From Eubacterium sp. (GTDB lineage: Bacteria > Bacillota > Clostridia > Oscillospirales > Acutalibacteraceae): a DNA stretch of 64,000 bases. The first letter of the stretch is position 1. The number at the start of each line of letters is the position of its first letter. Under the pieces are notes generated by a model. It did no database searches. It saw only the letters and a list, made by a program, of their open reading frames with translations, and was not told the DNA's origin. Shown here one piece after another: positions 3,764 to 49,228 of the stretch. A program made the position numbers and the translations under genes. Location: the NCBI GenBank assembly GCA_022511205.1, contig JAFLRY010000006.1, positions 1 through 64,000 on the forward strand. Reading direction: 5' to 3'.

Positions 3764-4921
3764 ATGGCTAAAAGTAAACCGGAGGGCTACCTCTCCGCTA
3801 AAGAATCCCGCAGGATTTCTAAGGAAAACAGAAAAATAACAAGCGCTCTTGAGAAAAAGCGTAAGCGCAAGAACGTTCCCGAGAGCGAGTATATCACAGA
3901 GATGAAGGACCCGAGCAACGCGGTTGAGTTCGATAATCTTCACACGTATTTCTTCACGGATGCCGGTACGGTTAAGAGTGTTGACGGCGTTACGTTTGAG
4001 GTGCCGCTCGGCAAGACCGTTGGCGTAGTTGGCGAATCCGGCTGCGGTAAATCAGTTACCAGCCTTTCGCTTATGCAGCTGCTCCAGAGACCCCAGGGTC
4101 AGATCGTTGAGGGCGAAATTCGTCTGAATCTCGGCGACAAGGCGTATGACGTTGCAAAAATGCCGAATGAAAAGCTGCTTGAGCTTCGCGGCAACTTCGT
4201 TTCAATGATCTTCCAGGAGCCTATGACGGCGCTCAATCCCGTTTTCCGTATCGGCGCTCAGCTTGATGAAGTAATTGCTCTTCATGACGGTGAGGGCAAG
4301 AGCGAAGCTGATGTTAAGGCACGTTCCATTGAGCTTTTGGAGATGGTTGGTATCGCCAACAGCGATGGCGTTTACCAGATGTTCCCCCACGAGCTTTCAG
4401 GCGGTATGCGCCAGCGTGTTATGATCGCTATGGCGCTTGCCTGCAATCCCAAGATCATTATTGCCGATGAACCCACTACCGCGCTTGACGTTACGATCCA
4501 GGCGCAGGTGCTCGATCTGCTTCGCAATCTTAAGGATAAGATCAATTCCTCAATTATGTTCATTACCCACGACCTCGGCGTTATCGCGGAAATGGCTGAT
4601 TACGTAGTTGTTATGTACGCGGGCCGCGTTGTGGAAAAGGGCACGGCGGACGATATTTTCTATCATCCCGCCCACCCATATACTATCGGTCTTATGGCTT
4701 CAAAGCCCGTAGTAGGCAAGCAGGTGGATAAGCTTTATTCCATTCCCGGAAAAGTTCCGAATCCCATCAATATGCCGAATTATTGCTACTTTAAGGATCG
4801 CTGTGAGATGTGCGTAGGCGGTTGTGACGGCGAATATCCGCCGGAGATCAGCATTTCCGATACGCATAAGGTATCCTGCTACCGCTACTGTGAAAACAAT
4901 AAAGAGGGAGGGGAAGCGTAA
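3764..4921 (+). CDS. oppD: Oligopeptide ABC transporter ATP-binding protein, OppD type
   Basis: Walker A GESGCGKS, LSGGMRQR signature, Walker B IIADEPTTALD. Confidence 0.93.
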   Translation: MAKSKPEGYLSAKESRRISKENRKITSALEKKRKRKNVPESEYITEMKDPSNAVEFDNLHTYFFTDAGTVKSVDGVTFEVPLGKTVGVVGESGCGKSVTSLSLMQLLQRPQGQIVEGEIRLNLGDKAYDVAKMPNEKLLELRGNFVSMIFQEPMTALNPVFRIGAQLDEVIALHDGEGKSEADVKARSIELLEMVGIANSDGVYQMFPHELSGGMRQRVMIAMALACNPKIIIADEPTTALDVTIQAQVLDLLRNLKDKINSSIMFITHDLGVIAEMADYVVVMYAGRVVEKGTADDIFYHPAHPYTIGLMASKPVVGKQVDKLYSIPGKVPNPINMPNYCYFKDRCEMCVGGCDGEYPPEISISDTHKVSCYRYCENNKEGGEA

Positions 4922-5961
4922 TGGCAATGAAAAAGAACGTTGCAGATAATCTTAAAATCGATAACAATTTCACTCCCGTTGAGTATGACGATCAGTATAT
5001 CCTGATGGTCAACGAGCTGAAAAAATACTTCCCTATCAAGGGCGGTATGATGTCCAGACCCGTTGGTTACGTTAAGGCTGTCGACGGCGTTACGTTTAAC
5101 CTTAAGCGCGGCACTACTATGGGTCTCGTTGGCGAATCCGGTTGCGGGAAAACCACCACCGGCCGTACTATTCTTCGCCTTGCAGGCGAAAAGACAGGCG
5201 GTCAGGTGCTCTTTAACGGCAAAGAAATCTATGATCTTTCCAATAAGGAAATGCGCGAAATGCGCACCAAAATGCAGATCATATTCCAGGATCCCTTCTC
5301 CAGCCTTTCTCCCCGCCTTCCCGTCGGCGAGATCATCGGCGAGGCGGTGCGCGAGCATAATCTTGTAAGCAAAGCTGAATTCAACGATTATATCGATAAG
5401 GTTATGGATAACTGCGGACTTCAGCCCTTCCATAAGGAGCGTTATCCCCATGAGTTCTCAGGCGGTCAGCGTCAGCGTATCTGTATCGCTCGCGCGCTTG
5501 CGCTCAATCCCGAATTCGTTGTGTGCGACGAGCCTGTTTCCGCGCTGGACGTTTCTATCCAGGCGCAGATCATCAACCTGCTTAAGGATCTTCAGGAGCA
5601 GTATAAGCTGACCTACCTGTTCATTTCTCACGATCTCAGCGTTGTTGAGCATATTTCCGATACGGTTGGCGTTATGTATCTCGGAAGCTTAGTGGAATAC
5701 GGCACTACCGGCGATATTTTCCGAAATCCGCTTCATCCTTATACTAAGGCACTGTTCTCGGCTATTCCGATCCCCGATCCCAATGCCCGTATGCAGCGTA
5801 TCGTGCTTGAAGGCTCTATTCCGTCTCCGGCAAATCCGCCGTTAGGCTGTAAGTTCCATACCCGCTGCCCGTACGCTACGGATCGCTGCAAGCAAGAAGT
5901 TCCCGCACAGAGGGAGGTAGAACCGGGGCATTACGTAGTATGCCATCTGTTCGATGAGTAA
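4921..5961 (+). CDS. oppF: Oligopeptide ABC transporter ATP-binding protein, OppF type
   Basis: [40 protein letters not shown] overlap with preceding gene. Confidence 0.93.
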
Positions 5962-47664: not shown

Positions 47665-47760
47665 AGTCATTACCTCGGCGTATATTTTATCACGGCTTAC
47701 ACTTATAATCAACATAATAATAAGAAAAGACACGGATATTCGTGCCTTTTATAGTAATTA

Positions 47761-48018
47761 TTAAGTTTCAGACAAATCTTCGTTATTAAATAAGTCGATA
47801 ATTGATATCTTTAAAACCTTTGCAATTGCAAACAATTCAATATCCGTTACGGTTCTTGATTGATCTTCGATTCTTGAAATAGAACCTCTGCAAACGTAAA
47901 CACCGAGGAGTTCAAGTTTGTTTGATAATTTTTGCTGGCTCATTTTATTCAGTATTCTATATTTCTTAATGTTTTGACCGACGAGATTCATTTTTTCTCC
48001 GTCAATTATTCGGGCCAT
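47761..48018 (-). CDS. Small XRE-family HTH regulator
   Basis: LVGQNIKKYRILNKMSQQKLSNKLELLGVYVCRGSISRIEDQSRTVTDIELFAIAKVL. Confidence 0.9.
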   Translation of the reverse strand: MARIIDGEKMNLVGQNIKKYRILNKMSQQKLSNKLELLGVYVCRGSISRIEDQSRTVTDIELFAIAKVLKISIIDLFNNEDLSET

Positions 48019-48039
48019 AGTACCATTTCTCCATGCTTA

Positions 48040-48107
48040 TTGTCTTGACATAAGACAATTACTATGCTATCATAAACACGCAAAAATATTGTCTTATCAT
48101 AAGACAA
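48040..48107 (+). promoter_or_regulatory. Promoter (TTGACA-N17-TATCAT) with two 19-bp palindromic operator candidates
   Basis: TTGTCTTGACATAAGACAA (48040..48058) overlaps -35 (48045..48050); -10 at 48068..48073; TTGTCTTATCATAAGACAA at 48089..48107. Confidence 0.85.
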
Positions 48108-48127
48108 AAAGTGAAATGGAGAAGATT

Positions 48128-49120
48128 ATGATAAAAAAAGAAATTCAAGTTATTATAATAGCTTTTGCTATGCTTTTTGGTATTTCGTTATTTGTTGGAA
48201 TAATTGTAGAAAATAATAGTTATACTGAAGAATCAAATAATGAACCAACTGTTGATGATGTATATGATACTGCTACAACAGAAGTTACCACAGTTAAAAC
48301 AACAACTGAACCACTAACACAACAAGTCAATTTGAGTGAATCATGTGATAAAATTTTAGCAAGTGGTTTATATGACGGGGATTATTATGAGTTGGTGGCA
48401 ACACAAGAAGAAACCTATAACGAGGTTGTTATTAAAATAGGTGTTATAAAAAACAATGAATGGCTTATTCCTTTAACAACGGATAGTCCATTTATTAATG
48501 AAGATGGAAGACTTTTTACTTATAATTATTATGATCATAATATGCATAGTAATAGTACAAAAAATTTAGAGTTTGTTTCAGATGACTATAATTTTATAGG
48601 TAATGGCTGTTTTTATATCTATACAAGTAGTGTAGGCAATATTATTTACAATGCCGAAATAGACAAGGAATTGGTTCTTCCAAAATCAGCAGGAGCAGGC
48701 GTTAATTTTTACAGATTGCATTTTGAAGAGTCATTGGATGAGTATGTTTGTTCGGATAAGTTTATTATTGAATATTATAAAGATTCTTCATATCAAGATG
48801 TTAGATTGTTAGATACTAATACAATGGAAATGAAGATTATAATTGAAAATCCGGATTATAATGTTGTTGGTCCGTTAGTAGATGGATTATTTGCAATGGG
48901 ATATTCTTATTCTGATTCAGTAAATGCATTTTATGATATTAATGGCAAAAAAATATTAGATGTTAGTGAATATAAAATTCATTATACTAGAGATACCTAT
49001 GGTAAATATCCTTATTTTGAAAATGGACAATTTAAATTTGTAACAACAAATGAAGCTGGAACAAAATATGATATGATTATTGAAAAAACAGGAAAAGTTA
49101 TTGAAAGTGTTGAAAGATAA
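48128..49120 (+). CDS. Orphan membrane-anchored extracytoplasmic protein, Thr-rich linker; WG/propeller-like C-terminus possible
   Basis: ATG at 48128 with GGAG SD (ORF-track TTG start at 48089 lies in operator); IIIAFAMLFGISLFVGIIV TM; AT-rich codons. Confidence 0.8.
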   Translation: MIKKEIQVIIIAFAMLFGISLFVGIIVENNSYTEESNNEPTVDDVYDTATTEVTTVKTTTEPLTQQVNLSESCDKILASGLYDGDYYELVATQEETYNEVVIKIGVIKNNEWLIPLTTDSPFINEDGRLFTYNYYDHNMHSNSTKNLEFVSDDYNFIGNGCFYIYTSSVGNIIYNAEIDKELVLPKSAGAGVNFYRLHFEESLDEYVCSDKFIIEYYKDSSYQDVRLLDTNTMEMKIIIENPDYNVVGPLVDGLFAMGYSYSDSVNAFYDINGKKILDVSEYKIHYTRDTYGKYPYFENGQFKFVTTNEAGTKYDMIIEKTGKVIESVER

Positions 49121-49228
49121 TTTGTTTTTATAAATGTTTTATGAAAAACTGTACATTTTTCCGTACCCAAAAAAGATAATATTGTTTTACCTCTGTGATT
49201 ATGGTAATATTTATTCGGAGGGAATAAT

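Follow-up and report, generated by a model that had tools for sequence, protein, structure and literature searches.

A probably autoregulated repressor gene and the promoter region that it is likely to control appear to travel together through gut Clostridia as a portable cassette, XRE and its O2–promoter–O1 block being conserved and the cargo gene behind the promoter swapped between lineages; we put the probability of this reading at roughly 0.8. By sequence comparison, the conserved unit measures about 330 bp and consists of the gene for a small XRE regulator, two palindromic sites (O2 and O1) and the promoter between them; the cargo is not part of it. The copy from which we worked lies in a 64,000-nucleotide stretch of DNA, hereafter the window, and its features are listed in Table 1.

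An earlier, sequence-only reading of the window had placed two matched 19-bp palindromes around a near-consensus promoter, and both palindromes lie where it put them. It described their arms as identical and their centres alone as differing; the two sites do differ at positions 8 and 9 only, but position 8 is the last base of an arm, so that TTGTCTTGACATAAGACAA pairs at 7/8 arm positions and TTGTCTTATCATAAGACAA at 8/8. Allowing up to three mismatches, the palindrome is matched four times in the window (two sites, each on both strands) against 0.59 expected, a count that 0/100 shuffles reached. A search of the whole 1.9-Mb genome, which that reading had recommended, gave no further copy with at most one mismatch and, at two mismatches, a single unrelated site on C16; the pair is unique to the XRE locus. 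The proposed TTGACA-N17-TATCAT promoter toward the orphan gene was likewise recovered (48,045–48,073), with a TG extension and 11/12 agreement with the consensus. Its -35 falls inside the first palindrome, and the second begins at about +9 from the inferred transcription start, as had been claimed: O2 spans approximately -40 to -22 of the cargo transcript, over the -35, and lies also within the 5' region of the XRE gene, and O1 spans approximately +9 to +27. The promoter of the XRE gene itself could not be placed with confidence, there being no good, well-spaced -35 on that strand; a TAnCAT overlapping the cargo -10 on the opposite strand may be its -10, and in some loci a palindromic -10, TATGnTAnCATA, provides a -10 on the other strand, again with no well-spaced -35.

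Table 1. Features of the cassette, its insert and its cargo gene in the window.
Feature	Position	Strand	Basis
Low-GC (~0.28) segment between hisC and rmuC, ~1.4 kb	approx. 47720..49160		GC; relatives' locus
Intrinsic terminator of the XRE gene, 10-bp stem and T run	47725..47750	-	sequence
XRE/HTH_3 regulator, 85 aa, starts MARIIDGEKMNLVG	47761..48018	-	Pfam HTH_3; conserved N-terminus MARIIDG
RBS of the XRE gene, GGAG	48029..48032	-	sequence; RBS at matching place in relatives
Operator O2 (XRE-proximal), TTGTCTTGACATAAGACAA	48040..48058		sequence; conserved in relatives
-35 of the cargo promoter, TTGACA	48045..48050	+	columns kept in ~49/53 aligned loci
Extended -10 of the cargo promoter, TGcTATCAT	48065..48073	+	ATGnTAnnnT nearly invariant, 53 loci
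Operator O1 (cargo-proximal), TTGTCTTATCATAAGACAA	48089..48107		sequence; conserved in relatives
RBS of the cargo gene, GGAG	48118..48121	+	sequence
Cargo gene (orphan), 330 aa, N-terminally membrane-anchored	48128..49120	+	ORF; AlphaFold2 model

The regulator scores 26.0 bits against HTH_3 (PF01381; curated cut-off, 23) and has no other domain, ligand-binding and sensor domains included; in keeping with its XRE/HTH_3 class, a palindromic site stands beside its own gene. We corrected its start to the ATG at 48,018, because nearly all relatives begin with MARIIDG behind an RBS at this place. Weak matches to the DicA and RstR models were obtained, and no solved structure was found to match it by sequence.

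Comparison among relatives ties the palindromes to this regulator. The operator pair is present upstream of the XRE gene in 56 of the 61 testable relatives, five close XREs lacking it, and O2 and O1 are offset by exactly 49 bp in the window and in 52 of these relatives, the other four having 48 bp. Searched for in 398 family genomes, the paired pattern gave seven hits, one per genome, against none for reversed-pattern controls, and all seven adjoin this XRE; the palindromes are thus not scattered independently of XRE homologues, whereas such scatter is what the sequence-only reading had named as refuting its proposal. Beside XREs of about 36–45% identity we found no operators. Close relatives of the regulator are rare in the genus (3/80 genomes, that of the window included, the other matches being 34–44% identical) and occur in scattered species, mostly as gut Clostridia MAGs (L028–L088). 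Across 53 aligned loci, conserved columns are restricted to the O2–promoter–O1 block of 68 bp, and conservation falls to background immediately beyond O1; TGTCTTG in O2 is nearly invariant and TTGACA mostly kept, followed at fixed distance by the -10, ATGnTAnnnT, and by O1, TTGTCYTAnnnTARGACAA. In L044, an XRE relative is fused to a C-terminal extension resembling SH3, and the operator pair has been lost.

Given this conservation, a pairing exclusive to the XRE subfamily and the lack of a pair at distant XREs, the palindromes are almost certainly the operators of this subfamily, of which we found no description in the literature, either as an operator sequence or as XRE cassettes. That they act instead in RNA, as attenuator hairpins, or bind some other regulator strikes us as scarcely credible: O1 is transcribed with the cargo, but O2 lies over the -35 and outside the cargo transcript, no T run follows O1, and the exclusive link to the XRE subfamily speaks against both versions.

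Repression by the divergent XRE, which the sequence-only reading had proposed from the geometry, is strongly supported by the tie between pair and subfamily and by the position of the sites on the -35 and just after the transcription start. XRE likely represses the cargo gene and regulates itself: O2 and O1 would both hinder RNA polymerase at the cargo promoter, and autorepression is likely because O2 falls in the 5' region of the regulator's own gene as well. In the mechanism we propose, the 85-residue protein, presumably as dimers and perhaps as a tetramer, would bind two operators bracketing a single strong divergent promoter. Occupation of O2 would cover the cargo -35 together with the 5' region of the gene for XRE, and occupation of O1 would block the first bases transcribed from the cargo gene and the upstream part of the XRE promoter, with the net effect that the cargo gene would be kept off and the level of XRE self-tuned. 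The nearly invariant 49-bp offset suggests that occupancy of the two sites is coupled, either cooperatively or by some other dependence on geometry. Regulator and O2–promoter–O1 block would be inherited together, with the gene behind the promoter changing from lineage to lineage.

The same architecture could also serve a dual switch of the kind known from C proteins of restriction–modification systems, which use paired palindromes, O_L and O_R, for activation and then repression (PMC8053105). XRE would then activate, at its own or the cargo promoter, when scarce and repress when abundant, and expression would be delayed or pulsed on entry of the cassette into a new cell. We consider this unlikely: although XRE is small and HTH-only, has two spaced palindromes, finds its best PADLOC match in a 'control protein' of restriction–modification systems (E 3e-6, a weak family match) and has O1 upstream of its likely promoter, the cargo promoter, close to consensus as it stands, requires no activator, and its -35 lies under O2. 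Nor is there a restriction endonuclease or methylase gene next to XRE, the neighbours being hisC and rmuC, and the cargo carries no such domain.

The sequence-only reading had taken regulator and orphan for a self-contained regulator/effector pair, of which one half stands: XRE and its operators stay together, but the partner gene is exchanged between loci. Synteny of the two genes is not kept, and the orphan of the window has homologues in the genus that occur without this XRE. The gene placed divergently differs in nearly every species, and about 40 unrelated clusters were obtained. They include secreted proteins with CHAP or dockerin domains, a lipoprotein of the M23 peptidase type, DUF6273, DUF6591, DUF4230 and zinc-ribbon proteins, a SLOG (YpsA) protein, ABC transporters and a small group resembling AbrB/MazE; not all of the assignments are certain, a few loci having no clear gene behind the promoter. 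Cargo differs in 18 of the 32 pairs of loci whose XREs are at least 80% identical, and is common to 1 of the 1,079 pairs below 70%. Neighbouring genes are not common to the loci either, close relatives excepted, and pairwise DNA similarity typically begins at the outer edge of O1 and stops where the XRE gene ends. L068 and L078, for example, have 2.46 kb of collinear sequence on the cargo side, and identity over XRE and operators is 82.5%; their cargoes are unrelated (a zinc-ribbon protein versus a lipoprotein), as is the other flank. L064 and L068 have a 48-bp match, which was rejected as a recombination site because it is the terminator region behind a neighbouring gene.

A hydrophobic N-terminus is found in 19/34 confidently called cargoes as against 56/266 background ORFs (p=7e-5), by a crude hydropathy test for which background ORFs from the same loci are an imperfect control; in most cases the predicted cargo is an accessory protein that is secreted or belongs to the envelope. 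Antitoxins and defence regulators of the XRE type are common, and one cargo, that of L034, matches the PADLOC candidate PDC-S02 (E 1.5e-18). That XRE is the antitoxin or regulator of a toxic cargo is nonetheless very improbable in our estimation, since the cargoes are for the most part secreted proteins, lipoproteins or membrane proteins from unrelated families, several of them large, and the window cargo gave no toxin or defence match in searches that included PADLOC. Membership of a type II toxin–antitoxin system was rejected on the same lack of a toxin match and on the difference in cargo between loci.

The three genomes of the genus (of 80) that carry the cassette hold it in three places with three cargoes, the two outside the window being L099, near an Obg-like GTPase gene, and L100, after a DAHP-synthase gene. 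Behind the L100 promoter (G057, ~4870–4960, minus strand) there is only a 30-codon ORF, for a single-membrane-span peptide, MKTNNKKEILILVSLFLLVFILAIVYVKFL, which is possibly a micro-protein cargo or a remnant.

The window copy is, by comparison with the empty site in relatives, inserted between hisC and rmuC, which in those relatives face away from each other and are as little as ~120 bp apart. We found no convincing direct or inverted repeats bounding the insert and saw no integrase beside it. In L103 the hisC–rmuC intergenic region holds an SGNH-hydrolase-like gene, which suggests that this spot tolerates insertions. The cargo of the window has no Pfam family above cut-off; its AlphaFold2 model (mean pLDDT 65.7) shows a membrane helix at the N-terminus, followed by a disordered linker and by beta-sheets, and the best Foldseek matches include beta-propellers at low TM-scores, making the modelled ectodomain possibly beta-propeller-like. 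An Rfam search of the region gave nothing credible. Homologues of the cargo were found in five other genomes of the genus, with no such operators or XRE seen upstream in the four that have flanking sequence.

Phage could be the origin of the XRE family. Evtepia phages carry XREs about 57% identical to that of the window, with a related GTCCTA-TAGGAC palindrome ~115 bp upstream, close to the place of O1, and in their light the cassette might be a decayed phage immunity region, with XRE as the repressor of a prophage and the cargo as a gene for lysogenic conversion (moron). We think this improbable: the phage copy has a single site with a different centre, the window copy adjoins no phage genes and is flanked by housekeeping genes, and no relative of XRE was found in plasmids or in an IMG/VR scan. 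In one such phage (PV036445; L138, 3971–4216) the related palindrome is GTCCTACCAGTAGGAC, and a MazF-like gene adjoins the phage-borne XRE.

The homologues of the window cargo point to other front-ends. They sit behind a conserved leader of ~190 nt, one long hairpin and then a terminator (L094–L097), whose signature was found in 32/80 genomes of the genus, in about 60 copies, and precedes 22 gene families among 30 examined. In L094–L097 and L141–L170 the candidate leader RNA has a ~130-nt hairpin, GCCAAA...TTTGGCGACAGTTGAGC, followed by a terminator hairpin and an RBS. Its stems are variable but complementary (z ~-8), and Rfam holds no match; we regard it as a candidate new structured RNA. Leader and cassette overlap in their cargoes, both preceding the window orphan's family and a SLOG protein. 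The hisC–rmuC site of L105, L107 and L121 is occupied by a second, unrelated XRE family with a divergent gene and paired ATGAC..GTCAT palindromes, clearest in L107; the cargo is a small membrane protein in L107 and another protein in L121, and L105 has an extra gene inserted. To us these observations speak for a general pattern in which regulatory front-ends can be exchanged. A more specific proposal, which we advance tentatively and at somewhat less than even odds, is that the XRE–operator–promoter block is a mobile or recombinogenic front-end that repeatedly captures accessory envelope genes and keeps them silent until needed on arrival, and is one of several (with the second XRE family and the hairpin leader RNA) that draw on a shared cargo pool in gut Clostridia.

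XRE genes that regulate themselves and have a divergent partner are common, and the partner is usually assumed to make up a fixed functional pair with the regulator; the type of regulation seen here is known, and its portable, cargo-swapping form is unusual. The cassette would work as an on/off front-end, reusable from one accessory surface gene to the next, and offers a testable model of how newly acquired surface genes might be brought under control at once. Two TTGTCYTA-N3-TARGACAA sites 49 bp apart provide a search signature for such genes in gut Clostridia, and the block could serve as a compact natural repressor/promoter part in these poorly tractable bacteria.

Among known systems, the phage Cro/CI-type and ImmR/DicA/RstR repressors share the XRE fold, but the cassette has a single accessory cargo gene; no recombinase, ImmA-type protease or phage genes were seen beside XRE, and the housekeeping flanks in the window and the relatives examined are unlike those of a phage or ICE module, a recombinase-bearing element. 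The type II restriction–modification C proteins are similar in being small, HTH-only and autoregulated (here a prediction) from two palindromic sites, and differ in that the cassette is divergent, with its sites 49 bp apart around the promoter and a cargo that varies. RcoLS20 of the Bacillus subtilis plasmid pLS20 is an autoregulated HTH regulator with two operators and overlapping divergent promoters, the strong one having a near-consensus -35, a 17-bp spacer and an extended -10, and the spacing of its operators matters (PMC4207663). The cassette resembles it in these promoter features and in an HTH regulator between divergent promoters, of which the cargo promoter is clear and that of XRE on the other strand presumed. 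The operators of RcoLS20 contain several motifs and act by DNA looping over a longer spacer, whereas the cassette has two palindromes 49 bp apart; and the target of RcoLS20 is a fixed conjugation operon, whereas the cargo of the XRE cassette is interchangeable.
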